Below, in pieces: positions 18,697-36,669 of a stretch of 47,021 nt of DNA. The number at the start of each line of letters is the position of its first letter. Positions within the stretch are counted from its first letter, which is position 1. This stretch comes from Deinococcales bacterium (GTDB lineage: Bacteria > Deinococcota > Deinococci > Deinococcales > JAAFIG01). Below the pieces are notes generated by a model that saw nothing but the letters and a program-made list of their open reading frames with translations, was not told the DNA's origin and did not search any database. The DNA is taken from NCBI GenBank assembly GCA_013298595.1, contig JAAFIG010000038.1, positions 1 to 47,021 of the forward strand, given 5' to 3'. A program made the translations under genes and the position numbers.

Positions 18697-18770
18697 AAAA
18701 CCTCGAGAAGAAAATCTAAACCAGATTATGACACCTTCACTAAGAAATAAGTGAGACAAGTATCACCATA

Positions 18771-18799: not shown

Positions 18800-18810
18800 C
18801 GAGGAACAAC

Positions 18811-19290
18811 TCACCAAGTGATTAGTTTTGGAAACTGAGCAGCTAAAGCAGAAACTTCACGAGCACCAGCAACATCATAAAACGCCATCGTACCGTCAAG
18901 TGTACAAGTCCAAACTTCTTTCGCACCTGCTTGCAAATACAAAGCAACTTTATTCAAAATTTCTTGTTTTGTATTACCAGGACTAATAATTTCAACACAA
19001 ATTTCGGGTGCAACGAGTAATGGCGTAGCATCACCATGAACCTCTAAAAATGCTCGAGATAACCAAGCCACATCAGCAACTTTAACCCCATCCGTGGTTT
19101 GAATACTGGTTTCAGTAATTGTAATGCCTGAACGTTGAAAAACCACACCAAACCACCAAACGATTTCTGCTTGTAACAATCCATGTCGATTCGTCGCTGG
19201 ACTCATTTCAATAACTCCTCGAGCATTTAATTCAATCTTGAAAGGAAGATTTTCAAGTGATTTATGTTCCAACACTTCTTGCCAAGTCAT
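18811..19290 (-). CDS. Uma2-family (DUF820) PD-(D/E)xK nuclease-like protein
   Basis: A 159-residue protein with Uma2 features: FKIELNARGVIEMSPATNRHG (start of the fold), a VKVADVAWLSR segment with the acidic metal residue, and PEICVEIISPGNTKQEILNKVALYLQAGAKEVW with the E...K element. Uma2 proteins have a restriction-endonuclease-like core, are very abundant in Cyanobacteria and Deinococcota, and have no firmly known role. A broken relative lies at 20923-21158. GAGGTGA precedes the ATG. Confidence 0.85.
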   Translation of the reverse strand: MTWQEVLEHKSLENLPFKIELNARGVIEMSPATNRHGLLQAEIVWWFGVVFQRSGITITETSIQTTDGVKVADVAWLSRAFLEVHGDATPLLVAPEICVEIISPGNTKQEILNKVALYLQAGAKEVWTCTLDGTMAFYDVAGAREVSALAAQFPKLITW

Positions 19291-19367
19291 GATTCACCTC
19301 TGAAATTCATTCTACTCGAGAAATCGGGTTAGTGTAGATTAGCAAAGTAAAGACAAATACCCATAAA

Positions 19368-19392
19368 AAAGAGCAGCCAGAAGCTGCTCTTT
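19368..19392 (-). terminator. Terminator after S41 paralogue 1
   Basis: A 10-bp stem AAAGAGCAGC / GCTGCTCTTT with loop CAGAA, sharing its whole sequence with the terminator at 18771-18799. Confidence 0.8.
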
Positions 19393-19407
19393 CTCGAAGA
19401 ACAAATT

Positions 19408-20922
19408 TTAGTACTGAGCTTGTAGAGCAAAACCATTGGTTTTTGTGGCAGATGAATATAATTGCTCGAGCGCAGTTACAATTGCATCCTGTCCGAACAT
19501 TGGCACTGGTTGAACAAACGGTACTTGGATTTCCGTATTAACTGGTGCGCTAAGGAGTGTTTTCGCTCCAACAGATTCAAGGGCTTTGTTCATACCAGCA
19601 TCAATGCCTGTTTTGAATAATTCAAAATTGGTGGCAGTAAAATCTGGCTTAACTTGAGCTGGTAAACTAACACCATCTGTCCAGAAGGTACGCAATGTTG
19701 GCATACCAGCAGCGCCCCCATTTGCCAATGGGAATCTAGCAGTGTTGGTATTACCAATACCTACTGTGGGTTCGCCAATAACCAAACCACGCTTGGCACG
19801 TTGGAAACTCGAGGAGATATACTCACAAGCACTAGCACAACCATCATCTACGAGTACTGCTAACGAACCTTCAAAAAGCACCGGAGTTTTTACGGCGAAG
19901 CTATTACCTACTTCAGGACGAGCAACAAAACGTTGATAAAACGCGCCATTACTAAAGCCTTCCTCAACTGTATTTTTATCAGCATTGTACCTAGGAGTAC
20001 GACGCATGGCATCAGGAGCTTTAATCAAAGCACCAGTGGTGAACCAACGTTCAAGTGCTGAACCGCCACCATTACCTCTTTGGTTAAAAATAATACTTTT
20101 TAACCCTTTTCCATTAGCTTCACGAATTAAATCGTGAATGCGTTGTCCAATACCAGCTATCAAATAATCAGGTACACGCAATAACCCAACTCCATCTGGG
20201 CGCAACTCGAGTTGCGGCACTTCTGAAGTTGAAATGATTGCGCCCTTAACAGTAATATCTATCTTTTGCTTATCAGCACCGCGAAGCATTTGCATCACAA
20301 TGGTCTCACCAGCCCGAATCTTAGTGGTAAAATCTGCTGAGAATTTATTGAGTTCAGTAACATCACCATTAAGACTTGCGAAAGTATTCCCATTAAAACC
20401 AACCCATCGATCACCGTATTTAATGCCCGCTTTATCGGCAGGTGAATCCTTGATTACATTGGTTACTAAACGATCCCCATTGACTTTACTGGTTAAATTG
20501 CCTTTGTCATCAGTAGTACATACACCATCAGCAGTTTCACAAAAAGTACGGTTTGAAAAACCAACTCGAGGAACAGGGCTAGTTGCTTGTCCTGCGCTAT
20601 TTGCATTTTCTTCTGCTACAGCAGCAGCAGAAAGGTAGTACGCATGTCTATCTTGAAATTCCCTAAACATTTGAACCAACAGTGGTTCAACTTTGTCATA
20701 ACCACATTGCTCTTTTAATTCAGCACAAGCTTCACCTACTTTGATTTGATACTTAGCAATCAGTTCTGGGATACTTATCTTGCTCGGACCAAAATACTGT
20801 GTCTCGAGAAAAAAACTGGCTTGGTCAAATAAATCCTGTGCAGGGCTACCAATGTACTTCTGAGCACCAGCCATGCTCGAGAATGCAAGTGCAGCAGTTA
20901 TTGCAATAACAAACTTTTTCAT
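19408..20922 (-). CDS. Exported S41 (C-terminal-processing-like) peptidase paralogue 1
   Basis: A 504-residue protein with a signal peptide (MKKFVIAITAALAFSSMAGAQ), a family-specific start (YIGSPAQDLFDQASFFLETQYFG), a PDZ domain (VTNVIKDSPADKAGIKYGDRWVGFNG) and an S41 core. The region DDGCASACEYISS aligns with the SASASE nucleophile motif and keeps the central Ser. The general-base Lys expected 25 residues later in GKG is Ile (GEPTVGIGNT), so the usual Ser-Lys dyad is incomplete. AGGAGG precedes the ATG, which overlaps the stop of the Uma2/S41 remnant. It is the last of four tandem paralogues. Confidence 0.8.
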   Translation of the reverse strand: MKKFVIAITAALAFSSMAGAQKYIGSPAQDLFDQASFFLETQYFGPSKISIPELIAKYQIKVGEACAELKEQCGYDKVEPLLVQMFREFQDRHAYYLSAAAVAEENANSAGQATSPVPRVGFSNRTFCETADGVCTTDDKGNLTSKVNGDRLVTNVIKDSPADKAGIKYGDRWVGFNGNTFASLNGDVTELNKFSADFTTKIRAGETIVMQMLRGADKQKIDITVKGAIISTSEVPQLELRPDGVGLLRVPDYLIAGIGQRIHDLIREANGKGLKSIIFNQRGNGGGSALERWFTTGALIKAPDAMRRTPRYNADKNTVEEGFSNGAFYQRFVARPEVGNSFAVKTPVLFEGSLAVLVDDGCASACEYISSSFQRAKRGLVIGEPTVGIGNTNTARFPLANGGAAGMPTLRTFWTDGVSLPAQVKPDFTATNFELFKTGIDAGMNKALESVGAKTLLSAPVNTEIQVPFVQPVPMFGQDAIVTALEQLYSSATKTNGFALQAQY

Positions 20923-21158
20923 AATCCTCCTATGTTTTGTAATGCCTTGGGCATACTGGGTTGAGCTAATAAAATACTGATTTCAGTAATTGTATTACCT
21001 AACCTTTGAAAACCACACCAAACCACCAAACAATTTCTGCTTGTAACGATATGCCGATTCGTTCCCAGACTCATTTCAATAACTCCTTGAGCATTTAATT
21101 CAATCTTGAAAGGAATATCTTCAAATGATTTATATTCCAACACTTCTTGCAAAATCAT
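20923..21158 (-). pseudogene. Chimeric remnant: broken Uma2 N-terminus joined to an S41 C-terminal tail
   Basis: The reading frame starts like the intact Uma2 gene (QEVLEYKSFEDIPFKIELNA) up to about residue 36, drifts out of frame through small deletions, returns at FQRLGNTITEISI, and then ends LLAQPSMPKALQNIGGL. That last stretch nearly equals the C-terminus of S41 paralogue 3 (LLSQPTMPKALQNVGGL). The join falls at a CAGTnTT sequence shared by both parents. The tail was probably kept because it carries the Shine-Dalgarno sequence and ATGA overlap for the next gene. Not expected to make a working protein. Confidence 0.75.
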
Positions 21159-21222
21159 GATTCACCTCTACAATTTATTCTACTCGAGAAAACGGGTTGG
21201 TATAGATTAGCAAAGTAAAAAC

Positions 21223-21246
21223 AAGAGCAGCCATGTGACTGCTCTT
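21223..21246 (-). terminator. Terminator after S41 paralogue 2 (degraded copy)
   Basis: An 8-bp stem AAGAGCAG / CTGCTCTT with an 8-base loop, followed by T residues. It is a diverged version of the two terminators at 18771 and 19368. Confidence 0.7.
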
Positions 21247-21263
21247 TTTCTATGTAAATTCAT

Positions 21264-22739
21264 TTAATACTTTTGCCAAGTATTTACTTGCGTCTGAAGT
21301 TGTCTTTTCAGAGGGAATAACCATTCAAATCCATTATTTGAGACTAGTTTTTCTCGAGCTTGAAAAGAACTAAATAGGGTTGCAGTCGTCTTGCCTTGTA
21401 GAAAATCAATAGCTTTATCTAAAGTAGCATCCACGCCGTCATTAATGAACTGTTCAGAGACCACATTAGACCCAAAATTATAAAACTTATCATCTTTTTT
21501 CGTATCTTCAGTGGCGATATCTGGTTTTACACTTTCTGGGTAAGGACTACCGTCAAGCCTTAGTGAACGAACGATAGATACTTGTAAGCCAGATTTGTCT
21601 GCAAGCGGGAAAACAACCGTGCCTGTATTTCCAACTCCAACAGTTTGCTCTCCCATAATTGTTGCTTTTTTCGTAAGCTGCAAATCAGACGCGAAATACT
21701 CAGAGCATGATGCACTACCACGGTTAACCAACACCACAGTTTTTCCAGTCCATTGGGCAACGTCAGGAATTTTGTAATACTGAAGGCGTTGACCTTGCGT
21801 GTTTTCTCTGTAAACTAGATTGCCCTCAACCCCATCCTTAACACGCCCCTGATAACGTGATTCACGAATTCTCGCTAGGTTTCCGACAAAAGCTGCAGCT
21901 GCGGACAAACACTCGGTGGCAACTCCTCCTCCATTAAAGCGTAAGTCTACAATCAATGACTGTGCGACATTGGCATTTTGAATCCTTTTAATCAGAGCGT
22001 GTATTTGCGGTCCGATTTGACTGCGCCATTCTAATGGGATTCGCAGCAATGCAATATCTTTGGTTCGAGTTTTTCTTAACAATGGTCCTGAAGTGGTAGA
22101 AAGTGTCTTTCCTTGTAACGTAATTTCAAAAGTCTCAGCGTCAGCTTTACCATCTTTACTGCGTTTGATGGTTAACTTAAATGGCTGTGCAGTTTCGACA
22201 ACTTTTAGAATTGCAGCATCGTTTTCTTCTTTTCCAGTTGGTAATTCTTGTCCATTCAGCGCAGTAATTCGGTCGCCTGTCAGTAGTCCTGCTTCCTCTG
22301 CTGCGCCCTCGGCAACGACATCAACAATTCGCCGATCATTTGAGTTAGGAATACGAATGCTAGAAACACCAATTCGAGGACCAGGTGCAGCTTGTGGACC
22401 TGCAGGTGGAGTGAAAACTTGGCTAAACTCAGCCGCATCTTCTGGAGGCAAGAAATTCGTGTGTTTATCACCTATTTCTTTAACCATATTACCAATCACA
22501 GGATAGGCGGTTTTATAGGCACACTTATCTTTTTCTGTTTCACAGGCAGAATCGAGGGCTAGTTGCGATTTGTTGAAAAGTTCAGGCAATTTAACGGTTG
22601 AAAAACCATAGTATTGCGTATCTAAATAAAATGTTGCTTGATCAAATAAATCTTGGGCTGGACTACCCAAATATCTCTGAGCACCTGCAATACTCGAGAA
22701 TGCAAGTGCAGCAGTTATTGGAATAACAAACTTTTTCAT
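21264..22739 (-). CDS. Exported S41-like peptidase paralogue 2
   Basis: A 491-residue protein with the same signal peptide (MKKFVIPITAALAFSSIAGAQ) and start (YLGSPAQDLFDQA) as paralogue 1, a PDZ domain (EGAAEEAGLLTGDRITALNGQ) and an S41 core. RGSASCSEYFASDL keeps the nucleophile Ser; the dyad Lys position is Val (GEQTVGVGNT). GGGVATE and DLRFNGGG shape the oxyanion region. Its ATG overlaps the stop of paralogue 3 (ATGA). The gene holds only two CTCGAG sites in about 1.5 kb, far fewer than its surroundings. Confidence 0.8.
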   Translation of the reverse strand: MKKFVIPITAALAFSSIAGAQRYLGSPAQDLFDQATFYLDTQYYGFSTVKLPELFNKSQLALDSACETEKDKCAYKTAYPVIGNMVKEIGDKHTNFLPPEDAAEFSQVFTPPAGPQAAPGPRIGVSSIRIPNSNDRRIVDVVAEGAAEEAGLLTGDRITALNGQELPTGKEENDAAILKVVETAQPFKLTIKRSKDGKADAETFEITLQGKTLSTTSGPLLRKTRTKDIALLRIPLEWRSQIGPQIHALIKRIQNANVAQSLIVDLRFNGGGVATECLSAAAAFVGNLARIRESRYQGRVKDGVEGNLVYRENTQGQRLQYYKIPDVAQWTGKTVVLVNRGSASCSEYFASDLQLTKKATIMGEQTVGVGNTGTVVFPLADKSGLQVSIVRSLRLDGSPYPESVKPDIATEDTKKDDKFYNFGSNVVSEQFINDGVDATLDKAIDFLQGKTTATLFSSFQAREKLVSNNGFEWLFPLKRQLQTQVNTWQKY

Positions 22740-24076
22740 AATCCTCCTACGTTTTGTAATGCCTTAGGCATAGTGGGTTGAGATAACAGAACACTGGTTT
22801 TTCCACCAAGGGCTTCAAGAGCTTTCTCGAGTATGACATCGCGTCCGTTTGCAAGTGCCTCAAGATCTTCTTGGTATTCAATATCTGGTTTGACCCGTTC
22901 TGCAAATGGTTGTCCATCTGGACGTAAACTTCTCGCTGTGGTTAATCCTAGAATACTACCATCAGAAAAGTTAAAGGGCTTTGTAGCTGTATTTAAAATG
23001 CCGTATGTTTCTTCGCCAACAACAATACCGCGCTTAGTATATTGAATTTCTGCTGGGAAAAATTCAGCACATGATGCACTATCGCTACTTACTAATACAG
23101 CAACTTTACCTTTGAACTGTGCTGGATTTGCAATACGATACGCTTCTGTCATTTTTTGCCCATTACCTATGGCAACAACACCATTTTTATAAGTGTAGAA
23201 AGTGCGACTATAACGTGTCTCGAGGGTATTATTAACTTCTGGTAGAAAAGCACCTGCAGCACTTGTACATTCGGTGACATTGCCACCTGGGTCATCACGT
23301 AAATCCACAACAATATTGGTCGCACCAGCTTTTTCGGCAGCATTAACCAATTCATGGAATTTAGTGCCAATCACTTTAAATGGCGAAAATTCGTGAATAC
23401 GAATAATAGCAGTATTGGTTGGTAAGCCATTGGGGGTTTTTGCTTCAGGTAACCATGCACTCGCTACAACCACTGGCGTGGCAGTAATCTCGAGTTTTTC
23501 TTGTCCGCCTCGCAAAATACTAAATATTATTGGTTTACCTTGTTCCTCGAGTGTAGGAATGAGGTTTTCATTATCGCGTCGAGTGGCTGGTAAAGTCACT
23601 TTGTTAATTGCAATAATCCTGTCACCGCGACGTAAACCGGCTTTACCTGCAGGTCCATCTTCTCGCACATCGGTAACAACTCTGTCACTGACAGCTTTGA
23701 GTTTAGCTGTATTTAATTCTAAGCTGGGCGCTCCTGTGCCAGTACCGTTTAATTGTCCCGCAAATTGCTCAGCCACTTCGGCTGGCACAAAGTAACTATG
23801 TGGGTCTTGAAGTTCTCGGATCATATTGGCAATTGGTAACCAAGCAGCTTTGTAAGCACAATCAGTTGGAGTTCTTGCACAAATCGTGTCTATCTGCGCT
23901 TGGTACTTAGCGATCAGATTACCGATATTTTGCGTACTAAAACCATGGTAATTAAACTCGAGGAAAAAACTGGCTTGATCAAATAAATCCTGAGCTGGTG
24001 TGCCAACGTATTTTTGTGCACCAGCCGCACTCGAGAGTGCTAATGCAGTAGCAATCACAAGTGCGAAGTGTTTCAT
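22736..24076 (-). CDS. Exported S41-like peptidase paralogue 3
   Basis: A 446-residue protein with a signal peptide (MKHFALVIATALALSSAAGAQ), the shared VGTPAQDLFDQASFFLEFNYHG start, a PDZ domain (REDGPAGKAGLRRGDRIIAINK) and an S41 core with SDSASCAEFFPAEIQ (nucleophile Ser kept). The Lys of the dyad is replaced (GEETYGILNT). Its stop overlaps the start of paralogue 2, and its own ATG overlaps the stop of paralogue 4, so the array is one operon. Its last 17 residues recur in the remnant at 20923-21158. Confidence 0.8.
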   Translation of the reverse strand: MKHFALVIATALALSSAAGAQKYVGTPAQDLFDQASFFLEFNYHGFSTQNIGNLIAKYQAQIDTICARTPTDCAYKAAWLPIANMIRELQDPHSYFVPAEVAEQFAGQLNGTGTGAPSLELNTAKLKAVSDRVVTDVREDGPAGKAGLRRGDRIIAINKVTLPATRRDNENLIPTLEEQGKPIIFSILRGGQEKLEITATPVVVASAWLPEAKTPNGLPTNTAIIRIHEFSPFKVIGTKFHELVNAAEKAGATNIVVDLRDDPGGNVTECTSAAGAFLPEVNNTLETRYSRTFYTYKNGVVAIGNGQKMTEAYRIANPAQFKGKVAVLVSSDSASCAEFFPAEIQYTKRGIVVGEETYGILNTATKPFNFSDGSILGLTTARSLRPDGQPFAERVKPDIEYQEDLEALANGRDVILEKALEALGGKTSVLLSQPTMPKALQNVGGL

Positions 24077-25341
24077 TTCGCTCCAAGAATCTCGAGGGCT
24101 TTCTCGAGTTGTACATCCCGCCCAGCAGCAAGTGCGGCAAGGTCTTCGGGTACGATAATATCTGGGGTGATATTCATTGGGAATGGTGTTTTATCTAAAT
24201 TCAGCATTCGCATTTCTGACACTTGAATGATGTCATTATTAATGAGTTGGGCTAATGCTCCGCCTGATACACCAAGTTGACCTGCTGTTGCTTCGCCAAC
24301 AACTTGTGCCCGACCAGCTTTTTGCAAGAAGTACGCTAACATTTCCGATGAATTTTCGGTAACTTTATTCACCAGTACGACCACTTTACCAGTGTACTGA
24401 GTGGCAGGATTCGCCTGACCAGCAAGTACAGCTTTGCCACCTTCAGGTGTTCCCTCTACGCTGCCACCATTATTAATCAGTTTGTACGAATCGTCTTGTC
24501 CTAAGAAACGACGATCATAAATAAAACCGCCTTCTTTGATAAATGCTCCTGCTGCCAGCAATGCTTCGGTATCGTAACCACTAAAAGCATCGCGCAAATC
24601 TATAATAATACCTGCTGCATTATCACGAACAGCTCGAGCCGCGTTACTATGCACTCGAGCACCCACCGAAGTTGATTGCGAACCATACAAATGCGGAATT
24701 CGGATCATTAAAGCCTTACCAATCGTGGCACGGTATGGTAAACGTGGGTCGTTGACTAAAATAGGTATAATCGAAGCGGTTTTGACTGCTCCAGCAGCGC
24801 TGTATTCAACTGCAATGGCTTTTGCGCTGGCTTCCGCAGCTTGTAAAGCTTTTATAGTGGCAGGTGCACCATTGATAGTTTTAATTAGATTACCTCGAGC
24901 TAAATCAGCATTGAACGCTGGTTCGCCTGGGAAAGCTTCAAGTACCACTAAACCTTGACCTGGGAGTTCTCGAGCTTGGATACCAATGGTAGCTGTACTT
25001 GGTCCTTTGCCTTCAGCAAAATTACTGGATGTTTCATATTCTTCTTCGGTTACCAATCGGGTAAATGGGTCATTAAGGCTTTTCATATAGGTAACAATGA
25101 CTTCTCTGCCTTTATCGTAACCACATTTAGCATCGCCTGCACAGACTTTTTGCACATCTGCTACCATGTTTTTTTGTAATTCACGCCAGTACGGTACTTT
25201 GGCAGATCCATTGTAATAAAACCCGATGTAGAACGAGGCTTGTTTGACTAAATCCTCGGCTGGTGAGGCTTTGGTTTGAGCGTTTGCCATGCCGAAGCTA
25301 CTGGCAACAATGGCGAGAGCGGCGAGTAATGGTTTTTTCAT
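24073..25341 (-). CDS. Exported S41-like protein paralogue 4, catalytic residues lost
   Basis: A 422-residue protein, first gene of the S41 operon, preceded by AAGGAG. It has a signal peptide (MKKPLLAALAIVASSFGMANAQ), a weak PDZ-like region (QGLVVLEAFPGEPAFNADLARGNLIKTING, about residues 105-135, given here in parts) and an S41 core. The nucleophile motif reads VTENSSEMLAYF, with Asn where the active Ser belongs, and GEATAGQLGV in place of GKG. It is likely inactive as a classic Ser-Lys peptidase and may bind peptides or assist its neighbours. Confidence 0.75.
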   Translation of the reverse strand: MKKPLLAALAIVASSFGMANAQTKASPAEDLVKQASFYIGFYYNGSAKVPYWRELQKNMVADVQKVCAGDAKCGYDKGREVIVTYMKSLNDPFTRLVTEEEYETSSNFAEGKGPSTATIGIQARELPGQGLVVLEAFPGEPAFNADLARGNLIKTINGAPATIKALQAAEASAKAIAVEYSAAGAVKTASIIPILVNDPRLPYRATIGKALMIRIPHLYGSQSTSVGARVHSNAARAVRDNAAGIIIDLRDAFSGYDTEALLAAGAFIKEGGFIYDRRFLGQDDSYKLINNGGSVEGTPEGGKAVLAGQANPATQYTGKVVVLVNKVTENSSEMLAYFLQKAGRAQVVGEATAGQLGVSGGALAQLINNDIIQVSEMRMLNLDKTPFPMNITPDIIVPEDLAALAAGRDVQLEKALEILGAK

Positions 25342-25559
25342 GCGGTTCTCCTTTGAAATGTGTTTGAACGCCTTATAGAATACCGTTTTTGATGTGATCT
25401 CGAGTAGTTTGTAGCTTTCAGTTATTCTTTAGAGTATTGCCATACTTTTGCCATAAACTAGAGATTGAGTAATAAGTGAATTCTGCTATTGACAGAAAAC
25501 ACTTCAATCCTCGAGAATAAACAGATTGCGCTCGGGTCATTCTCGAGCTTGGAGGCAAT
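25342..25559. other. Divergent promoter region between the S41 operon and uvrB
   Basis: No gene is seen. A TTGACA at 25489-25494 with a weak -10 (GAGAAT, 18 bases further) points toward uvrB. No LexA-type palindrome was recognised. Three CTCGAG sites lie here, at about 25400, 25510 and 25542. Confidence 0.4.
25489..25518 (+). promoter_or_regulatory. Possible uvrB promoter
   Basis: A perfect -35 TTGACA is followed after 18 bases by GAGAAT, a poor -10 that partly overlaps a CTCGAG palindrome. GGAGG then lies directly upstream of the GTG start at 25560. Confidence 0.35.
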
Positions 25560-27593
25560 GTGAATCAACGCTTCAAAATCGAATCTGAATTTACTGCCAA
25601 AGGCGACCAACCTAAAGCCATTGAACAAATGGTAGAAGGACTTGAGAGTGGTTACCGCTTTCAAACACTGTTAGGGGCGACAGGTACTGGAAAGACATAT
25701 TCCGTAGCACGCGTGATAGAGCAACTTCAGCGACCTGCTTTAATTATTGCACCAAATAAGATTCTAACCGCGCAATTGGCTGGTGAGTTCCGCGATTTTT
25801 TTCCCAATAACGCCGTCGAGTTTTTTGTTTCCTATTACGATTACTACCAACCCGAAGCCTATGTGCCCGGCAAAGATTTATTTATCGAAAAAGATTCCGC
25901 TGTTAACCAAGAAATCGAACGCCTTCGCCACAGCACCACGCGCAGCTTATTAACTCGCCGTGATGTGATCGTGGTTGCCAGTGTCTCCTGCATTTACGGC
26001 TTAGGTAACCCTGAAGAATACAAGAAGATGAACTTGTACCTCGAGAAAGGTAAACCTATTGCCAGAGATGCGATTCTCGAGCGATTGGTACAAATTCAGT
26101 ACGAACGCAACGACATCGAATTGTTACCGGGACGTTTTCGTGCCAAAGGCGATACGCTCGAGATTTGGTGTAGTTACGATGAGCACCCAATGCGAATTCA
26201 ACTCTGGGGCGATGATCTCGAGCAAATCCAAGTGGTCAATTTATTAACGGGCGAGATTCTCAAAGATCTCGAGTCGACAATTGTTTACCCAGCCAAGCAT
26301 TACGTGACCGAACAAGGCAATATTGATGCAGCTCTCGCAGGAATCGAATCAGAACTTGCTGGTCAACTCGAGTATTTTAACAGCGTTGGTAAGTTGCTCG
26401 AGGCACAACGGATTAAGGAACGCACCTTGTACGACCTCGAGATGATGCGAGTGCTCGGGTATTGCAGTGGTATCGAAAATTACTCGAGGCACATAGATGG
26501 TCGTCAACCGGGCGAGCGCCCTTATACTTTGCTGGATTACTTCCCAGATGATTTTGTGACTTTTTTAGACGAAAGCCATATTTCTCACAGCCAAATTGGT
26601 GGGATGTATAAAGGCGATTATGCTCGCAAAAAAACCCTGTCCGATTATGGGTTTAGATTGCCCAGTTGCTTAGATAATCGCCCATTAAAAACCGAGGAAT
26701 TCTACGAAAAAGTTGGACAAGTGGTCTATGTTTCTGCCACCCCAGCCGAATATGAACGTACCATCTCAAGCCAAATTGTCGATCAAGTGATTCGCCCGAC
26801 AGGTTTGATAGATCCAAAAATCGAGATACGCCCGACACTTGGACAAGTGGATGATTTGGTTGGTCGAATCCGTGCTCGAGCCGATAAAGACGAACGGGTA
26901 CTTGTTACTACGTTAACCAAACGCATGTCCGAGGATTTAACCGAGTATTTCTTGTCGCACAACATCAAAGCACGGTACTTGCACTCGGAAATAGACACCA
27001 TGGAACGCCAAGAAATCATCCGCGATCTTCGCCTTGGACATTTTGATGTGCTGGTTGGTATTAACTTGCTGCGCGAAGGCTTAGATTTACCCGAAGTCAG
27101 CTTAGTTGCCATTCTTGATGCCGATAAACCAGGGTTCTTACGCTCCGAACGCAGCTTAATTCAAACCATCGGACGTGCCGCTCGTAACGTCAACGGCGAA
27201 GTGATTCTGTATGGCGATGGTATGACGCCCGCTATGCAATTTGCTATTTCGGAAACCAATCGGCGTAGAGCTTTACAAGAAGCCTATAACTTTGAAAATA
27301 ACATCACCCCAACCACCATTAGCAAAAGCATTCGCAAAGTGATTCGCGGCGAAGAAAACATCGAAGAAACCGCTCCAATCAGCGAAATCGGACTGAGCAA
27401 AGACGACATCCTCAGCGCCATCACCGATCTCGAGTTAGATATGTGGCAAGCCTCCGAAGCGATGGATTTTGAAAAAGCTGCCAGTATGCGCGACCAGATC
27501 AGACAACTCGAGGCAAAATTATCAGGGCAAGAAGTGAAAACCGTCAATATTCCAGGGGGCAAACCACAGAAACGCTCGAGAGGCAGAAGGTAA
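25560..27593 (+). CDS. uvrB: Excinuclease ABC subunit B
   Basis: A full-length 677-residue UvrB, the damage-verifying helicase-like subunit of nucleotide excision repair. Walker A GATGTGKT is at residues 39-46, the beta-hairpin region shows [12 protein letters not shown], the helicase motifs include FLDESH and GRAARN, and a C-terminal UVR motif ([20 protein letters not shown]) contacts UvrC. The start is GTG with GGAGG four bases upstream. Ten of its eleven Leu-Glu pairs are written CTC GAG. It is a single gene, with the DUF433 pair starting 50 bp downstream from its own promoter. Confidence 0.98.
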
Positions 27594-27631
27594 ATCATGA
27601 AAAAACAACACTATAAATGACCCCAATACCG

Positions 27632-27637
27632 TATAAT
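27632..27637 (+). promoter_or_regulatory. -10 box of a leaderless promoter for the DUF433 gene
   Basis: A perfect TATAAT lies six bases before the ATG at 27644, with no room for a Shine-Dalgarno sequence. Confidence 0.6.
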
Positions 27638-27643
27638 TCTTTT

Positions 27644-27985
27644 ATGACTATGGTACTAGAAACCACAACCGCTGTACCGCTCAGACACGATCAGGGTGGC
27701 GCAGTGCGTGTTGGTCAAACACGAGTAACCTTGAATACGGTCATTTATGCTTGGCAACAAGGCAATAGTGCTGAAGAAATCCTCGAGCAATATCCTGCAT
27801 TAAACTTAGCTGATATTCACGCAGTACTCGCATGGGCATTACGCAATCCTGAAACAATCAAGACTTATATGCAAGGTTGCGCTGAACAAGAAGCACAAGC
27901 AATTCGACAACTTGAAGTAGACCCTAAAGTTCAAGCCTTTCATGCTCTTTTACGAGAAAGAATCAAAGCTAAAGGGTTACGTTGA
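27644..27985 (+). CDS. DUF433 antitoxin-like protein
   Basis: A 113-residue DUF433 protein: GGAVRVGQTRVTLNTVIYAWQQGNSAEEILEQYP followed by LADIHAVLAWALRNPE forms the small winged-helix of the family (given in parts). DUF433 proteins pair with DUF5615 PIN-like proteins and are taken to be the antitoxin and autoregulator. The start was set at the ATG just after a TATAAT box. It overlaps the next gene by four bases. Confidence 0.85.
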   Translation: MTMVLETTTAVPLRHDQGGAVRVGQTRVTLNTVIYAWQQGNSAEEILEQYPALNLADIHAVLAWALRNPETIKTYMQGCAEQEAQAIRQLEVDPKVQAFHALLRERIKAKGLR

Positions 27986-28329
27986 AATTTGCTGCCGATG
28001 AAAATCTGAACAATCGGATTTTACGTGGACTTAAACGCATATACCCAAATTTAGATATTTTACGAATCCAAGATACCGAAATAGTCCATGGCGATGACCC
28101 AACTGTACTGCATTGGTGCGATTTAGAAAATCGAATATTGCTCAGCCATGACTTTGAAACCACACCAATGTTTGCGTATGCCCGAATAAAAACAGGTTCT
28201 CGAGTTGCAGGAATTATCATGATTCCTAAAACACTCAGTATCGGTGCGGCAATTACAGAATTAAGTGTTGTCATTGAATTCATGAGCCTAGAAGATTGGA
28301 CAAATCGCTTGCAGTATTTACCAATTTAG
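27982..28329 (+). CDS. DUF5615 PIN-like toxin candidate
   Basis: A 115-residue DUF5615 (Mut7-C/PIN-like) protein beginning FAADENLNNRILRGL with the conserved acidic pair, then IQDTE, DxxVLHWCDLENRILLSHDFET and a late DD/ED region (EFMSLEDW). The fold is related to PIN ribonucleases, so RNA cleavage is the expected activity, held off by the DUF433 partner. The start is TTG, inside the stop of the upstream gene, so translation is coupled. Confidence 0.82.
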   Translation: MKFAADENLNNRILRGLKRIYPNLDILRIQDTEIVHGDDPTVLHWCDLENRILLSHDFETTPMFAYARIKTGSRVAGIIMIPKTLSIGAAITELSVVIEFMSLEDWTNRLQYLPI

Positions 28330-28417
28330 AAACTTGAGCTAACACAAAATACTCGAGTTGAAAGGTTTTGTAAGGCTCGAGTGATAAGCCATTTCGCCCC
28401 ATTTACAGTTATTGCAG

Positions 28418-28423
28418 TACAAT
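28418..28423 (+). promoter_or_regulatory. -10 box of a leaderless promoter for the GGDEF gene
   Basis: TACAAT lies seven bases before the GTG at 28431 with no Shine-Dalgarno sequence. Confidence 0.5.
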
Positions 28424-28430
28424 CTGAGCT

Positions 28431-29762
28431 GTGGAGAATCATGTACCAACACCTGAGCTGGCTTTTCAAGCCTTAGAAGCATTAGGCGTTGGAGCATTAC
28501 TACTTAACCACGAAAACATTGTGGTGTATGCCAATCAGGCTTTACTCGAAATGAGCGAACACACTTCTTGTATTGGTTTAACTCGAGAAACGTTGCTTTT
28601 GCCACCCGAAGATAAAACCACTGGCTGGCATCAATTGCGTACAGCCCAAGCACAAGGTATTGCCGTGGAAATTACAGAACGGCAACTGCCTTCTGGTCAT
28701 CAAATCATCACTGTTAGCAACGCTGTTGCCCGTTATCGCCGAGAACGATTAACTCGAGTCTTAGAACAAATTGCTCATGCCTTAAACAGCCTCGAGCCAG
28801 ATAGCACCAGTTTGTACCGAGCCATTCATCGGGCTTTACAAAGTGTCATGGATGCCCGAAATTTTTATATTGCCTTATGCGAACCAGCCCCTGACACATT
28901 TAGTTTCCCATACATGAGTGATGTGTACCAAGAATTTCGCTTAGAAAACTTGTACTTACCTGATAGTTTAACCGCGTATTTAGCACAATCGGCTCGAGCA
29001 CAACTGATTTCTGGGCTTGAATTTGAAAACTTTATTAAGTCTAACAAAATGAAGTTATATGGCACACTTCATACAAGTTTAATTGGTACACCTTTGCGTG
29101 TTGGTGAGGAAACCGTTGGTGTAATGACTTTACAGAGTTACGATCAACAAAGTTACAGCATTTACGATTTGCAATTACTTGAAGCTGCGGCGGCTTCGAT
29201 TAGCATTTTTATTCAAGCCAAACGAGTAGAACAGCTTTCGATGGCAGCCCGCTTTGATGCTTTGACAGGATTGCATAATCGTCGAAGTTTCGAGCAGCAC
29301 TTAGCCATGTGTTTTAGCAATAAACAACACCCTGATTTTGCCGTAGCATTTATAGACTTAGATGGTTTTAAGTCAGTCAATGATAACTTTGGGCATCAAC
29401 AAGGCGACTCTCTCTTAAAAATTGTCGCCGAGCATTTAGAAGAATTTGCTCGTCAAGGAGACATCGTGGCGCGTTTAGGCGGCGATGAATTTGCCATACT
29501 GCTTCACAATGTGCAATCTACTGCCGATGCTCAAAAAATTGGTCAGCGCCTAATTGAACAATTCCAAAAACCATTGCAAATAAAACAAACCGAAGTCACC
29601 ATTGGTTTGAGCGTTGGAATTGCAAAATTTGCAGCTGACCCAAGCATAGATGCTTTATTACACCGAGCCGATGATGCCATGTACCAAGCTAAACGAGCTG
29701 GTGGATTCCGTTGTGTTATTTCCACACAGTCTGAAGCCCCAAGCACAGTTATTGGACTATAA
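28431..29762 (+). CDS. Diguanylate cyclase with PAS-like and GAF sensor domains
   Basis: A 443-residue soluble signalling protein. The N-terminus (about 1-110) looks like a PAS domain (VVYANQALLEMS), the middle (about 115-255) a GAF domain, and the C-terminus (about 270-430) a GGDEF domain with the intact signature RLGGDEFAILL at residues 348-358. The product-inhibition I-site RxxD is present as RQGD (341-344), five residues before GGDEF. It should make cyclic di-GMP from GTP, limited by product feedback. There is no EAL or HD-GYP domain and no PilZ gene nearby. Confidence 0.92.
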   Translation: MENHVPTPELAFQALEALGVGALLLNHENIVVYANQALLEMSEHTSCIGLTRETLLLPPEDKTTGWHQLRTAQAQGIAVEITERQLPSGHQIITVSNAVARYRRERLTRVLEQIAHALNSLEPDSTSLYRAIHRALQSVMDARNFYIALCEPAPDTFSFPYMSDVYQEFRLENLYLPDSLTAYLAQSARAQLISGLEFENFIKSNKMKLYGTLHTSLIGTPLRVGEETVGVMTLQSYDQQSYSIYDLQLLEAAAASISIFIQAKRVEQLSMAARFDALTGLHNRRSFEQHLAMCFSNKQHPDFAVAFIDLDGFKSVNDNFGHQQGDSLLKIVAEHLEEFARQGDIVARLGGDEFAILLHNVQSTADAQKIGQRLIEQFQKPLQIKQTEVTIGLSVGIAKFAADPSIDALLHRADDAMYQAKRAGGFRCVISTQSEAPSTVIGL

Positions 29763-29925
29763 AAAACAGCGCACCGTGATTCAGATAGTTAGTCTAGGAT
29801 TAAGGATTCATCACGGTTCAAAATACTAATGTTCGAGATGATTTTCGGCGCAACTACTTTAACAAAGTACTTGTAGGTACACCTCAGTTTCTCCAGTGCA
29901 AAATGCTGGTAAACTCGAGAAATCT
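29763..29925. other. Intergenic region after the GGDEF gene, with a long-loop hairpin
   Basis: ACCGTGAT at 29773-29780 pairs with ATCACGGT at 29810-29817 across a loop of about 29 bases. There is no T tract, so it is not an obvious terminator. Nothing else is recognised here. Confidence 0.3.
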
Positions 29926-30413
29926 ATGGCAGTTGATTTTGCGGAACTTGCTACCCAACGGCTTTGGATGCTATTCACAGTTGGAGTGCGGAGTTTGCAA
30001 GTTTCGATCAGCGCTTAGATGATTTGTATTTTGAGCTGACTATTCTAGCTAAACCTCAGTTGTGGTTAAAGTTATTTGCGAAATTGAATGTAAAAATTTC
30101 GCCTAATACATTGAAACAGGGAGGGTACAAGCGCGAGTAGCCCGTCAGGTGCTATCTTACGAGCAAGAAGACCCTCCCCTACATAAAAATTCGTGATTTT
30201 ATCTCGTAGGGGCGACCCTTGTGGTCGCCCTGTTCTTATCCGCAACTGACGTTAGCTAAGCATCTCGAGGTGGCAAAATTTACGGCTCAGGTGTTCGTGG
30301 TTTGGGCTGGCGATAATTGGTCTGAGCCTGCTGTGTTGAAAAATATCAAGGAAGAGTTGCATCGTTTAGCTTTGGAATCATTGCTTTGCCATATCAATGG
30401 CACACTAAACTGA
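29926..30413 (+). pseudogene. Broken hypothetical gene interrupted by a GC-rich repeat
   Basis: An ATG at 29926 opens MAVDFAELATQRL; after a frameshift near 29963 the chain continues DAIHSWSAEFASFDQRLDDLYFELTILAKPQLWLKLFAKLNVKISPNT (given as one region, about 29968-30113). A repeat element (30119-30232) then interrupts it, and a further frame ending at 30413 (LEVAKFTAQVFVVWAGDNWSEPAVLKN, in parts) looks like the C-terminus. The protein family is not recognised. The call depends on these pieces belonging together. Confidence 0.5.
30119..30232. repeat. GC-rich palindromic repeat element inside the broken gene
   Basis: It begins with GGGAGGGT, which pairs with ACCCTCCC near 30171-30178, and ends with a perfect 8-bp hairpin GGGCGACC / GGTCGCCC (30210-30230) opening with GTAGGGGCG. 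The same opening is found at 10767, 40090 and, reversed, 46878. Confidence 0.6.
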
Positions 30414-30432
30414 ATTTCTCGAGCCAAAAAAA

Positions 30433-30455
30433 GGAGCAAAGGCTGGCTTTGCTCC
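30433..30455 (-). terminator. Terminator after mglA
   Basis: A perfect 9-bp stem GGAGCAAAG / CTTTGCTCC with a 5-base loop. On the minus strand it is followed by seven T residues. It lies just downstream of the mglA stop. Confidence 0.85.
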
Positions 30456-30474
30456 TTTTACCTCATCTCGAGGG

Positions 30475-31065
30475 TTATTTACTTTTGGCTAATCGCTCAA
30501 GTACCAGTTTTGATACAGCGCGGAGGGTTTCAAATACGCCGCCGCCAATGTGTGCTGAACCTTCAAAGCATTGGAATTGACTGGTTGGGTCTACTACAGC
30601 TTGGAGCATATCCATTGGCATGGCATCTGGTAAGTCGCGTTTGTTGAATTGAATCACCATGGGGATTTCATCTAAGCTGAGGTTGTACTCTTGTAAGTTC
30701 TCGCGTAGGTTACGCATACTTTCGGCATTGGCACGCAGACGATTTGGGGCGCTGTCAGCAACAAAAATAATGCCATCCACACCGCGTAGAATCAGTTTGC
30801 GGCTGGCGTTGTAAAAAACTTGTCCGGGTACAGTGTACAAATGAAAACGGGTTTTGAAACCTTGGACTGTACCAAGGTCTATGGGCAAGAAATCAAAGAA
30901 AAGGGTGCGTTCGTCTTCGGTGGCAAGCGAAACCATTTCGCCTTTGACACCTTCAGGGACTTGCTTATAAATCCATTTGAGATTGGTGGTTTTACCAGCA
31001 ACGCCAGGTCCGTAGTACACGATTTTACAATTGATTTCTCGAGCGGCAAAATTAATCGTACTCAC
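30475..31065 (-). CDS. mglA: MglA-type Ras-like small GTPase
   Basis: A 196-residue GTPase of the bacterial MglA group, close to the Thermus protein. The P-loop is GPGVAGKT (19-26), switch 2 carries TVPG (78-81) in place of the usual DxxG, and the guanine motif is NKRD (141-144). MglA-GTP marks a cell pole and controls motility machinery such as type IV pili or gliding complexes. The start is GTG with AAGGAT upstream. The gene follows mglB by nine bases and ends at a strong terminator. Confidence 0.95.
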
Positions 31066-31074
31066 AATTTATCC

Positions 31075-31572
31075 TTAATTTGTCTTAAATAGGTCATCGA
31101 GTAACGCTCCGACTCCCGAGGCGAAATCCGCACCTAATGCCATATCCATAGCAGGCATTGGCTCGAGGTGTTCTATGATATGCGAAATATCTTTAATCGC
31201 GGTTTTAGCATACAACTTAACCCGTCCAATTGGCGCTGTTTCATCAAAAATGACCACCAATAAGGCTTCGGATTGGACTTCTTCGACGTATAAGCCAATG
31301 CGTTCGCCTTGGTGGACAAGTTCGTTAAACCGCCGTTCGCCAAGCAATTTGGCTAGGGCGCTGGTGGCAGCAGCATTACCTGCAATTAAAGTGGCAATGC
31401 TATCCAAAGCAGGTGGTTTTGGTGCCCATAATGCTTCTTTGTGGGCTAAGACAAAACCTTTTCGGTCGAGCAGCATCGCGTAGCGCACGTGCGCTTTGGT
31501 CAGCAAATCGTCTAGCGATGCCGTAACCTTATTAAACGATTCGCCATACAAGGCGATACTTGGTTCAATCAT
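31075..31572 (-). CDS. mglB: MglB-type Roadblock/LC7 GTPase-activating protein
   Basis: A 165-residue Roadblock/LC7 protein (core about 15-135, with MLLDRKGFVLAHK and ALLVVIFDETAPIGRVKLYAKTAI, given in part) and a C-terminal tail. MglB dimers activate GTP hydrolysis by MglA and set its polar position. The ATG at 31572 was chosen since a TATACT box sits six bases upstream. It is the first gene of the mglBA operon and divergent from the glycosidase-like gene at 31642. Confidence 0.85.
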   Translation of the reverse strand: MIEPSIALYGESFNKVTASLDDLLTKAHVRYAMLLDRKGFVLAHKEALWAPKPPALDSIATLIAGNAAATSALAKLLGERRFNELVHQGERIGLYVEEVQSEALLVVIFDETAPIGRVKLYAKTAIKDISHIIEHLEPMPAMDMALGADFASGVGALLDDLFKTN

Positions 31573-31578
31573 GTCTCG

Positions 31579-31584
31579 AGTATA
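31579..31584 (-). promoter_or_regulatory. -10 box of a leaderless promoter for mglB
   Basis: On the minus strand TATACT lies six bases before the mglB ATG. As at 1987, the last two bases of the box are the first two of a CTCGAG palindrome. Confidence 0.55.
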
Positions 31585-31641
31585 GCAAAGCTGGCAGCGA
31601 TTGTAGGCAAAATCCGACATCAGGCATTACCATAGGTCATA

Positions 31642-33408
31642 ATGCGAATTTTTCTTGCTGTCATCTGTCTTTGCTCGAGTGCCTTAGCTACACCTATTTT
31701 ACTGAGTGACCAGCAACTCGAGCCACCATTAGAATCTCGTGCTGATCTGGATTTAACGCCGCTCGAGAGTGTTTTAGATGAACGCGTACCACTCTCGGCA
31801 TTGGAGCGCTTTGGGGTGGTGGTGCAAACTTCAGGCTTGGATGGACGGATTCGGATGGAGGTTGTGCCAACCGAAGAAATCGTACCACCAATGCCTGTTT
31901 TGTTTGTACAATCCGTACTTGGTTTTAAGAAAGCCGAGGAACCACTTGGTTCGTTTAGGCTCGAGTGGCAACCCGAAAAAGGGTGGGTTAGTCTGTCTGG
32001 TGAGGTTGTAACAGGTTGGAATGCACCTATTCTGCGTGATGGCATCATTTTTGTGCCAATCAAATGCCTTGGAAAATTGGGCTTTGACTTAAATGTACTC
32101 GAGTCTGGAATTCAGGTTCGTTCTACTTTTGCTCAAAACACCTTACCTGTTGGCGGTTTAAACCAAATCCTTGAAATCAAAAGCCAAAAGGGACGTTCCA
32201 GCCGAGTTTCCCTTAGTTTTGCTCGAGCTGCCGAGTTTTTTGTCACTGAAAAAACCACAGCAAAATTTCGTCTCAAATTTGCTAATACTGCCACTCAACC
32301 CAAATTCCAAGCTGTGGGTTCTGAAAGCCTCTCGAGAGTACGGGTGTTGCGCTCAGGCAAAGACGCAATACTCGAAGCAGAAATTCCTTTTGGTGCCACA
32401 CTCGAGGTCAGTGCAAACGGCAAAGAGGTTTTTATTGACACCACAGAAATTGGTTTACCCTTGCCTTTAGTGCCGACTGTGCTACCCACGGGAGTGTCGT
32501 ATACCATCACACCCGTTGGATTAAGCAAACTGCACTTAATTCGCCTCGAGCCGAGTTTATACCGCCCAGAAGTACAAACCGCACCTTGGGGCGGTGCAAA
32601 AAGCATCCTCGAGTATGGCGGCACAACCATTGCTGCTGTTAATGGTGGGTACTTTGACCCAAGCAGTATGCAAGCAGTGGATTTACTGTTTACTGGCAAT
32701 ATCCAAGCCTACTCGAGAGGCAACCGAGCTACCATCGGATTTATAGATAACACCATGCTTTTTGGTATTCCTCGAGCCAGATTGGTACTCAGCATGGGTG
32801 CAACCACTGCCAATATCAATCAGATTCGACCCGTACCGCACCCGCAAAACCTGACATTTTTCATTGGTGATGATTTCGTACCCGTTGGTGGTTTAGGTTT
32901 CACAACTTTTGTGCTGGCAAATGGCAAAATTCTCGAGCGCCGAGATGATGCTTTTGTGCCAAAAACAGGACAAATCACAGTGACATTTAATCCTAAAACC
33001 AATCCGAGTTTTGAACGCAAAGTTGGTGATGATGCCAGTGTCGCCCTGAACTGGTCAGATGCTGCTTGGCAAAACACCAGCAGTGCCATCGCCGCTGGAC
33101 CTCGCTTAATCGCTAATGGCGTTTATGCTGTCAATCCTCAAGCTGAAGGGTTTGACCCAAACAGCGAAATTTGGCGCCCTACTCGACAAATCGGTATTGG
33201 TATGGACACAACAGGCAAGTACGTCCTAGCCATGCTCGAGTTAGCCAGCCCCGAAGATTTTGCTAAAGCCTTATTAGCCCAAGGCTTGCGTGATGCCATT
33301 CGCTTAGACAGCGGCACCAGCGCACAAATGACACTGATGGGAGGCGCAGTTGGCGGACGCATCAGCCGAGCTATTCCAAACGCAATTGTATTCAAAGCTC
33401 GAGAGTAA
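31642..33408 (+). CDS. Exported phosphodiester glycosidase (NAGPA-domain) protein
   Basis: A 588-residue protein with a signal peptide (MRIFLAVICLCSSALA), an N-terminal region with a copper-amine-oxidase-N/AMIN-like beta layout (about 80-250), and a C-terminal NAGPA (DUF2233) domain. The latter shows TTIAAVNGGYFDP, SAIAAGPRLIANG, RQIGIGMDTTGKYVLAML and RDAIRLDSGTSAQMTLMGG. NAGPA enzymes remove N-acetylglucosamine from phosphodiester-linked sugars; in bacteria they act on envelope glycopolymers such as teichoic acid-like chains. A TACCAT eight bases upstream may be a leaderless -10. Divergent from mglB. Confidence 0.85.
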   Translation: MRIFLAVICLCSSALATPILLSDQQLEPPLESRADLDLTPLESVLDERVPLSALERFGVVVQTSGLDGRIRMEVVPTEEIVPPMPVLFVQSVLGFKKAEEPLGSFRLEWQPEKGWVSLSGEVVTGWNAPILRDGIIFVPIKCLGKLGFDLNVLESGIQVRSTFAQNTLPVGGLNQILEIKSQKGRSSRVSLSFARAAEFFVTEKTTAKFRLKFANTATQPKFQAVGSESLSRVRVLRSGKDAILEAEIPFGATLEVSANGKEVFIDTTEIGLPLPLVPTVLPTGVSYTITPVGLSKLHLIRLEPSLYRPEVQTAPWGGAKSILEYGGTTIAAVNGGYFDPSSMQAVDLLFTGNIQAYSRGNRATIGFIDNTMLFGIPRARLVLSMGATTANINQIRPVPHPQNLTFFIGDDFVPVGGLGFTTFVLANGKILERRDDAFVPKTGQITVTFNPKTNPSFERKVGDDASVALNWSDAAWQNTSSAIAAGPRLIANGVYAVNPQAEGFDPNSEIWRPTRQIGIGMDTTGKYVLAMLELASPEDFAKALLAQGLRDAIRLDSGTSAQMTLMGGAVGGRISRAIPNAIVFKARE

Positions 33409-33422
33409 AATAAAGACTTGGT

Positions 33423-34007
33423 TTACTGAAGACTCGAGAACCAATCTATGTTGTCTTCGGGAAACGCCAAACAAGTAGCCAACTGACCTGTTTTAAGAAC
33501 AAACGTGGTGGTGTAACGCGCATCTTCGGGGTCTCGGTACACCTCGAGTTGATGGTTTTGCAAATTCAGAATCCAATACTCTTGGATGCCATCTCGGGCG
33601 TAAATGCTGGCTTTCCAATCACGATCTTTTTGTAAACTCGAGTCAGAAACTTCGATCAACAAATACACATCTTCAGGTTGGCTGTATCGACCTAATGGGC
33701 GATCTTTTCGCACCAATGCGAAATCGGGTTGTGGTCGTCCATCAAGCGGTAAATTGATCGAGTTTTGACAAGAAACCCTGGCTCGAGGGCTGAATTGTAG
33801 AATCAATCGTTCGTTTAAAGCATCTATGTGGTCAACATGTTCGGGTTTCATTTCCTCTATCTCCACCAATCTGCCATCAAGCAACTCCACTCGAGATTCA
33901 TGGTCAATCACACCCGTTTCAATCATCTGATCGAACATTTCGGCAGTCACATGAAACCAGTACGAATCGGTTTGCTTAGCTCTTGGTTTTTCCAGTAAAG
34001 CGGTCAT
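33423..34007 (-). CDS. Uma2-family protein
   Basis: A 194-residue Uma2 (DUF820) protein: RVELLDGRLVEIEEMKPEHVDHI, LPLDGRPQPDFALVRKDRP with the metal-binding Asp, and PEDVYLLIEVSDSSLQKDRDWKASIYARDGIQEYWILNL (in parts) with the E...K catalytic element. The start at 34007 has AGGAG seven bases upstream. It is a close relative of the next gene (same MTALLE start and DWFSSL end), so the two arose by tandem duplication. It converges on the glycosidase-like gene with only 14 bases between. Confidence 0.87.
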   Translation of the reverse strand: MTALLEKPRAKQTDSYWFHVTAEMFDQMIETGVIDHESRVELLDGRLVEIEEMKPEHVDHIDALNERLILQFSPRARVSCQNSINLPLDGRPQPDFALVRKDRPLGRYSQPEDVYLLIEVSDSSLQKDRDWKASIYARDGIQEYWILNLQNHQLEVYRDPEDARYTTTFVLKTGQLATCLAFPEDNIDWFSSLQ

Positions 34008-34015
34008 ACACACTC

Positions 34016-34597
34016 CTACAAACTCGAGAACCAATCTATTTGATCGTTTGGGAAGGCTAAGCAGGTGGCAAGTTGTCCAACCTCGAGAGTAAAACTGGTT
34101 AAGTACCGCTCTTCGGATGGGTTGCGGTAGACCTCGAGTTGCTTGGCTTCAAGATTGAGAATCCAGTATTCACAAACCAGATCTCGTGCGTACAGTGGCA
34201 ATTTAATACTTCGATCACGATGAATCGTTGACTCTGCAACTTCGATCAATAAATAAATGTCTTCGGGGAGCGGCACTCGAGTTCGAGGTACTTCTCGGTG
34301 CGCTAGCACAATGTCGGGGTCTGGTCTGCCATCATGAGGCAATTGAATCGTGCCTTGATTAACCACTATTGCTTGAGTATCAAATTGGTACATCAGGCGT
34401 TTATGTAACTCGAGCAATGCGTAGTAATGTGTCGAATTCACTTCTGGTTTCCTCACAATCTGACCATCGAGTAATTCGACTCGGTCATCAGATGACAAAA
34501 AACCAATTTGCCAGAGTTGATCGAATTGCTCGCCCGAGAATCGCATCAACTCGAGTTGTGCTTGAGGTTTTCTTGGTGATTCAAGCAATGCGGTCAT
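34016..34597 (-). CDS. Uma2-family protein, tandem paralogue
   Basis: A 193-residue Uma2 protein paralogous to the downstream one: RVELLDGQIVRKPEVNSTH, LPHDGRPDPDIVLAHREVP and PEDIYLLIEVAESTIHRDRSIKLPLYARDLVCEYW (in parts). The acidic and Lys residues of the PD-(D/E)xK core are kept. The role of Uma2 proteins is not established. Confidence 0.87.
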   Translation of the reverse strand: MTALLESPRKPQAQLELMRFSGEQFDQLWQIGFLSSDDRVELLDGQIVRKPEVNSTHYYALLELHKRLMYQFDTQAIVVNQGTIQLPHDGRPDPDIVLAHREVPRTRVPLPEDIYLLIEVAESTIHRDRSIKLPLYARDLVCEYWILNLEAKQLEVYRNPSEERYLTSFTLEVGQLATCLAFPNDQIDWFSSL

Positions 34598-34602
34598 GAT
34601 TT

Positions 34603-36657: not shown

Positions 36658-36669
36658 TGGTGAGACTCC

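Follow-up and report, generated by a model that had tools for sequence, protein, structure and literature searches.

The window, the whole stretch of 47,021 nucleotides analysed here, contains the uvrB gene and, upstream of it, a cluster of three genes for C-terminal processing (S41) peptidases (Table 1). UvrB contains eleven Leu-Glu pairs, which start at residues 28, 161, 173, 200, 220, 237, 270, 280, 293, 624 and 650. An earlier sequence-only reading of the gene had noticed that ten of these pairs are written CTC GAG and only the first CTT GAG. This count is exact, and the pair at residue 28 is the sole exception. The leucine codons of uvrB are TTA (22), CTC (15), TTG (13), CTT (9), CTG (7) and CTA (1), and glutamate is encoded by GAA (41) and GAG (21). 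The Leu-Glu pairs account for 10 CTC codons (15 in the gene) and 11 GAG codons (21 in the gene).

In the intergenic stretch listed in Table 1, a terminator-like inverted repeat (AAAAGGAGCAAAG...CTTTGCTCCTTTT) lies between two CTCGAG. The same stretch carries two segments of a dispersed intergenic repeat, the copies of which are 25-53 bp long and in many cases 95-100% identical. Such copies were found on dozens of contigs of genome G001 and also in genomes G002 and G003.

Table 1 Features of the window and CTCGAG sites in and near uvrB
Feature	Position	Strand	Remarks
Whole window	1..47021		258 CTCGAG, 5.5 per kb; about 5 in all expected
Three S41 peptidase genes	19411-25341	-	clustered upstream of uvrB
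uvrB	25560..27593	+	677 aa plus stop; 13 CTCGAG, 10 in frame as Leu-Glu
Leu-Glu, residues 28-29	25641..25646	+	CTT GAG; one transition from the palindrome
CTCGAG, Leu161-Glu162	26040..26045		frame 0
CTCGAG, Leu173-Glu174	26076..26081		frame 0
CTCGAG, Leu200-Glu201	26157..26162		frame 0
CTCGAG, Leu220-Glu221	26217..26222		frame 0
CTCGAG, Leu237-Glu238	26268..26273		frame 0
CTCGAG, Leu270-Glu271	26367..26372		frame 0
CTCGAG, Leu280-Glu281	26397..26402		frame 0
CTCGAG, Leu293-Glu294	26436..26441		frame 0
CTCGAG, out of frame	26483..26488		phase xxC TCG AGx
CTCGAG, out of frame	26875..26880		phase xCT CGA Gxx
CTCGAG, Leu624-Glu625	27429..27434		frame 0
CTCGAG, Leu650-Glu651	27507..27512		frame 0
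CTCGAG, out of frame	27575..27580		phase xxC TCG AGx
Intergenic stretch with four CTCGAG	29763..30474		sites at 29914, 30264, 30418 and 30467; site density as in genes
Dispersed intergenic repeat	30130-30170, 30205-30232
Two CTCGAG with a terminator-like inverted repeat between them	30418-30472		

CTCGAG in the genome, in the reading frames and in noncoding DNA

Dinucleotide shuffles of the window gave 5.1 ± 2.2 copies of CTCGAG against the 258 observed, and the runner-up among the 6-bp palindromes of the window counts 33. The flanks of the CTCGAG sites in the window showed no extended motif. The source genome (G000; 4,582,226 bases in 68 contigs, 94% complete, no 16S gene found in the assembly by a 16S search) contains 27,159 CTCGAG and 15 copies of the reversed word GAGCTC. 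Since GAGCTC, chosen as a control, is itself avoided in G000, the ratios of observed to expected counts (O/E) were obtained from Markov models for which the CTCGAG sites had been masked; in 447 kb of G000 they were 70-95. The genome carries approximately 27,000 CTCGAG, 50 to 90 times the number expected by chance. The effect spans the genome, and its attribution to uvrB in the sequence-only reading was therefore too narrow.

The tabulation of codon pairs that had been proposed for the three phases of the word was carried out on 447 kb, with the expected rates derived from codon use outside the CTCGAG sites. Leu-Glu pairs were written CTC GAG in 1286 of 1876 cases (68.6% vs 1.6% expected), the NCT-CGA-GNN phase contained the palindrome in 537 of 820 cases (65.5% vs 4.2%) and the NNC-TCG-AGN phase in 429 of 1107 (38.8% vs 1.2%), so that all phases agree. 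Genes and noncoding DNA carry 5.9 and 5.3 CTCGAG per kb, respectively (447 kb), and across contexts the density is 5.3-6.0 per kb. In 115 kb of noncoding DNA of G000, 690 CTCGAG were found vs 9-13 expected. The odds ratios calculated from these counts are about 131 (Leu-Glu), 43 (NCT-CGA-GNN), 52 (NNC-TCG-AGN) and 54-79 (noncoding). There is thus a single, roughly constant force in every context (natural log 3.8-4.9), which corresponds, for each place where the word is permitted, to an odds ratio of about 40-130 and to a population-scaled strength of about 4-5.

The proposal that a force acts on the DNA word rather than on codons is supported by its strength in three frames and in noncoding DNA, and a drive on CTCGAG itself is almost certain. 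The proposal would have failed if CTC and GAG were the commonest codons for their amino acids in this genome, but outside the sites 9% of leucines are encoded by CTC and 18% of glutamates by GAG. A preference of the translation machinery for CTC-GAG, as codons or as a codon pair, would agree with Leu-Glu being the commonest phase (1286 of the 2252 coding CTCGAG in 447 kb). Its probability is negligible, however: it is refuted by the equal density in noncoding DNA and by the strong excess of the word in the other two phases. Outside the sites, CTC and GAG are used for a minority of the Leu and Glu residues, and no comparable bias was seen in eight control groups from other phyla (odds ratios 0.3-1.6).

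Several other palindromes are nearly eradicated in 1.25 Mb of G000: TTCGAA (3 copies), CTTAAG (9), CCCGGG (4), GAGCTC (3), GACGTC (1), CCGCGG (2), AGGCCT (0) and GGCC (29). GGCC does not occur in the window. TTCGAA, CTTAAG and CCCGGG are the three words that two symmetric transitions produce from CTCGAG. Two of the three copies of TTCGAA lie in the T-loops of tRNAs, where the word is functionally constrained.

Proteins, turnover and near-miss words

The sequence-only reading had also taken protein need to be constant, and this part did not hold. Within the proteins encoded by 1.25 Mb of G000, 5415 Leu-Glu dipeptides were counted vs 2324 expected (2.33x), which makes Leu-Glu the top over-represented dipeptide among those with an expected count above 100. 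The ratios for the control dipeptides Glu-Leu, Leu-Asp and Leu-Gln were 0.98, 0.94 and 0.98, respectively. CTCGAG encodes 3583 of the 5415 pairs, and the remaining 1832 are slightly fewer than the 2324 expected in total. Since the surplus matches the CTCGAG-coded pairs, protein need is not constant, and the case for a force on the word is stronger than originally argued. Peptides that the other two phases permit were also in excess: the type [SPTA]R[VADEG] reached 1.40x, whereas the reversed order gave 0.87 and the replacement of R by K 1.03; xSS peptides reached 1.61x and xT[SR], with T as the replacement, 0.96. Besides codon choice, the palindrome has altered the proteins themselves. Of the earlier interpretation as a whole, the force on the DNA word thus stands, and the constant protein need and the restriction to uvrB do not.

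The Leu-Glu excess was similarly measured in the relatives G001 (2.47), G002 (2.46), G003 (2.93) and G012 (2.52), vs 1.10 in the site-poor genome G004 and 1.01 in the Thermus-like G007. Leu-Glu positions of G000 are kept as Leu-Glu at a rate of 0.60-0.63 in site-rich relatives (control dipeptides 0.49) and of 0.27-0.31 in site-poor relatives (control dipeptides 0.39), both gaps being modest and that in the site-poor relatives borderline significant by our estimate.

In the parts of the window alignable with G001 (75% identity), 69% of CTCGAG are shared vs 23% of general hexamers. At conserved Leu-Glu pairs, relatives at family distance carry CTCGAG at 83 of 109 pairs where G000 has it and at 29 of 41 where it does not; within the genus, the respective numbers are 30 of 37 and 8 of 15. 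The excess of shared sites thus vanishes at family distance once the protein is held constant, which indicates that the sites turn over and that their density is restored. The force is therefore current in each lineage. Taken together, these measurements have shown it to be genome-wide, frame-blind, site-autonomous and ongoing, and to alter proteins as well.

Pairs of permitted places 60-1000 bp apart gave an odds ratio of only 1.1-1.2 for joint occupancy. Neighbouring CTCGAG are consequently not redundant and behave independently beyond about 50 bp, which counts against models in which one site serves about a kilobase of DNA, such as methyl-directed mismatch repair and DNA uptake signals. Methyl-directed mismatch repair would saturate near one site per kb (Elhai, PMC4390886). 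Preferential uptake of CTCGAG-bearing DNA in transformation, in the manner of the Neisseria DUS or the Haemophilus USS, is likewise improbable, since kilobase-sized fragments predict redundancy and occupancy is independent at 60-1000 bp; moreover, CTCGAG is a palindrome of 6 bp, lacks an extended context and occurs about 6 times per kb. It is in accord with uptake that Thermus and Deinococcus are naturally competent and that CTCGAG-poor islands of the genome include pilin, defence and restriction genes. Words with one mismatch are in excess, as they are for uptake sequences (PMC1939737).

At short range, pairs of CTCGAG closer than about 50 bp are avoided inside genes, with an odds ratio of 0.15 at 7-9 bp, and noncoding DNA showed no repulsion except under 10 bp. 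The repulsion in genes suggests that hairpins in mRNA may be avoided. A spacing function was considered and dropped, because the repulsion is confined to genes below about 50 bp.

In the 115 kb of noncoding DNA, the words one transition away from CTCGAG exceed expectation (O/E 1.8 for TTCGAG, 2.8 for CCCGAG and 1.8 for CTTGAG), and the transversion neighbours stay at 0.6-0.86. A simple reversible bias would leave the neighbours at background, and the one-transition excess therefore speaks against it. Either a recogniser would tolerate transitions, or the word would be created and lost by different routes. In E. coli, Vsr inflates its own target word. A similar very-short-patch repair of T:G mismatches, by which TTCGAG or CTTGAG would be turned into CTCGAG from one step away, is very improbable, since it predicts the depletion of these T variants typical of Vsr targets. 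Here, TTCGAG and CTTGAG are enriched 1.8-2.4x in noncoding DNA and about 2x overall, and CCCGAG, which would require the opposite change, is enriched too.

Carriers of the bias and search for a cognate enzyme

G000 belongs to an uncultured Deinococcota family (f1), a relative of Truepera and Thermus, and was placed in the same order as Truepera radiovictrix. A comparison of UvrB with the named set of sequences gave no close relative. All four f1 genomes, which represent three genera, contain 26,600-28,200 CTCGAG each, and G012 and G016 of family f2 have 6-8 per kb. All site-rich genomes fall into f1 and f2. A weaker, phase-independent bias was detected in Truepera (G009, which we take to be T. 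radiovictrix; odds ratios 3-9), Marinithermus (G006, presumably M. hydrothermalis; 3-13), G075 (6-21), G102 (6-15), G070 (9-56) and G008 (6-11). It is weaker in most of the sampled genera of families f2 to f5, the last of which presumably corresponds to Thermaceae. No bias was found in G004 (odds ratios of all phases below 1) and G007 (Leu-Glu odds ratio 0.5, zero sites in the other phases), and no comparable bias on the D. radiodurans plasmids (Leu-Glu 0.4-0.5) and T. thermophilus pTT27 (Leu-Glu 0.5). The trait is therefore present in all f1 genomes and in most of the sampled Deinococcota outside Thermus and Deinococcus, and it is lost or absent in G004, Thermus and the D. radiodurans plasmids. 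Cultured genera, among them Truepera, Marinithermus and a Meiothermus-like one, appear to belong to the carriers.

The islands of lowest site density sampled in G000 hold a restriction-modification system, Prok-E2/ThiF/JAB and SIR2 defence genes and pilin genes, which indicates that DNA is not edited immediately after import. Scans of viral contigs for the same signature picked out mainly GC-rich ones and no convincing example.

No methyltransferase ortholog common to all four f1 genomes was found in the Pfam classes PF07669, PF01555, PF00145 and PF02086. A profile of the XhoI/PaeR7I type detected such methyltransferases in 9 of the 111 genomes of the order. Each f1 genome encodes several methyltransferases, and non-orthologous enzymes with a common target may act as the cognate activity. 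An m5C methyltransferase, orphan-type by its best match in PADLOC and native-like in site content, is present in G000, G001 and G012 and missing from G002 and G003. Structure and sequence look-ups of three G000 methyltransferases returned generic matches alone (HhaI, CcrM and TaqI).

CTCGAG is the target of XhoI and PaeR7I, and endonucleases of the XhoI family are present in the order. That an active restriction-modification system of this type selects for CTCGAG is nevertheless hardly credible. The XhoI endonuclease family PF04555 is absent from all eight f1 and f2 genomes, and its carriers G018, G042 and G048 avoid the site (0.7-1.0 CTCGAG per kb vs 1.7-2.0 in the congeneric relatives G010, G014 and G030). 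Three of the four PF04555-bearing genomes are relatively site-poor for their genus.

In G018, G042 and G048 (loci L109, L110 and L111), the XhoI-family gene overlaps a gene of the N6_N4_Mtase methyltransferase family tail to tail. The XhoI gene of Truepera (G009; L112 and L113) contains stop codons and adjoins a PaeR7I-like methyltransferase gene. At L119, L114 and L130 (G102 and G077), PaeR7I-like methyltransferases occur without the XhoI endonuclease family and are apparently orphan.

Origin of the bias and comparison with known systems

We give about an even chance to the overall reading that CTCGAG is a highly iterated palindrome (HIP)-like element of a Deinococcota lineage, maintained by an ongoing, local and frame-blind force, with a mechanism based on repair or conversion as the most likely one. 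The mechanism itself, a repair- or conversion-linked drive exerted by a word-specific activity, is proposed tentatively and with slightly less than even confidence. Of the overall reading, it has been shown that the force favours the word at any place where mutation gives rise to it, in noncoding DNA and equally in coding DNA, where amino acid changes are fixed as well. In the proposed mechanism, a sequence-specific DNA-modifying or DNA-binding activity would act on CTCGAG, and the copy bearing it would be the favoured template in the repair of mismatches or heteroduplexes between chromosome copies. The clade-wide gradient, with controls at baseline, agrees with the overall reading; the absence of a methyltransferase ortholog common to the four f1 genomes in the four Pfam classes, the rarity of the XhoI/PaeR7I type and the excess of one-transition words count against it. 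Thermus, Deinococcus and cyanobacteria have many chromosome copies per cell, which would help a conversion-like drive. A repair-linked, conversion-like drive is also the kind of process proposed for cyanobacterial HIPs.

In place of such a drive, direct selection might maintain CTCGAG as a weakly useful target of an abundant protein that binds DNA throughout the genome, each site conferring a scaled advantage of about 4-5; roles in chromosome organisation, repair loading and segregation were considered. Many small and equal contributions would suit the similar strength in all contexts and the independence of neighbours, and the mild excess of one-transition variants would follow if a binding protein tolerated them. 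We consider direct selection less likely, as positions are not conserved between genera beyond what the protein allows, density or spacing beyond 50 bp has no visible effect, the constraint on thousands of amino acids must be outweighed and no candidate protein emerged. The conversion-like drive is favoured over binding-site selection because the force prevails over the constraint on proteins and leaves no sign of positional memory or of density effects. It is possible, at somewhat less than even odds, that an ancestral Deinococcota mechanism, unrelated to the known pairings of methyltransferases and HIPs, drives this one hexamer and imposes thousands of amino acid changes. If so, it would be a bacterial counterpart of word-specific biased gene conversion, with DNA chemistry dictating dipeptide content. 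The shift in proteome dipeptides means that genome signatures which look neutral can distort the evolution of proteins, sequence alignments and selection tests that rely on codons.

The closest known system is HIP1 (GCGATCGC) of cyanobacteria, a short palindrome over-represented tens of times throughout a clade, in genes and intergenic DNA, and scarce in recent acquisitions (PMC4390886; PMC3025956). Copies of HIP1 are believed to arise by mutation at the sites where they stand. Similarly, CTCGAG is over-represented tens-fold across the genome (27,159 sites, O/E 70-95), is found in every frame of genes as well as in noncoding DNA, is clade-wide with exceptional losses and is scarce in recently acquired genes (the low-density islands). 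It is not HIP1 proper, since the word is not GCGATCGC and the host is a member of Deinococcota rather than a cyanobacterium, and CGATCG is depleted here (O/E 0.08-0.24). The density of CTCGAG, a 6-mer, is 5,900 per Mb, compared with 300-2700 for HIP1, an 8-mer (PMC4390886). No cognate methyltransferase common to the carriers was found with the four Pfam classes and the XhoI/PaeR7I profile, and a proteome-wide effect was measured for CTCGAG (2.33x Leu-Glu).

Alternate HIPs of cyanobacteria, GGCGCC in Calothrix PCC 7103, GCsGC in Cyanothece PCC 7822 and rCCGGy in Oscillatoria PCC 10802 (PMC4390886), are, like CTCGAG, short genome-wide palindromes that differ from the HIP1 word. These occur sporadically, each in one genome that also has a methyltransferase as its putative cognate (PMC4390886), whereas CTCGAG is common to whole families and most of the sampled genera of an order. 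DUS and USS resemble CTCGAG in that a highly over-represented word is accompanied by one-mismatch variants (PMC1939737), but they are non-palindromic and 9-10 bases long, while CTCGAG is a 6-bp palindrome with about 6 sites per kb and no redundancy between sites.

A search of the openly licensed literature found no prior report of CTCGAG enrichment. The upkeep of HIP1 in cyanobacteria has been a puzzle since 1995, in part because such palindromes seemed limited to a single phylum. CTCGAG, as an independent second case from a different phylum, provides a comparative test, in which the carriers can be set against Thermus, Deinococcus and G004. CTCGAG behaves like a HIP, but with another word, in another phylum and at a higher density.
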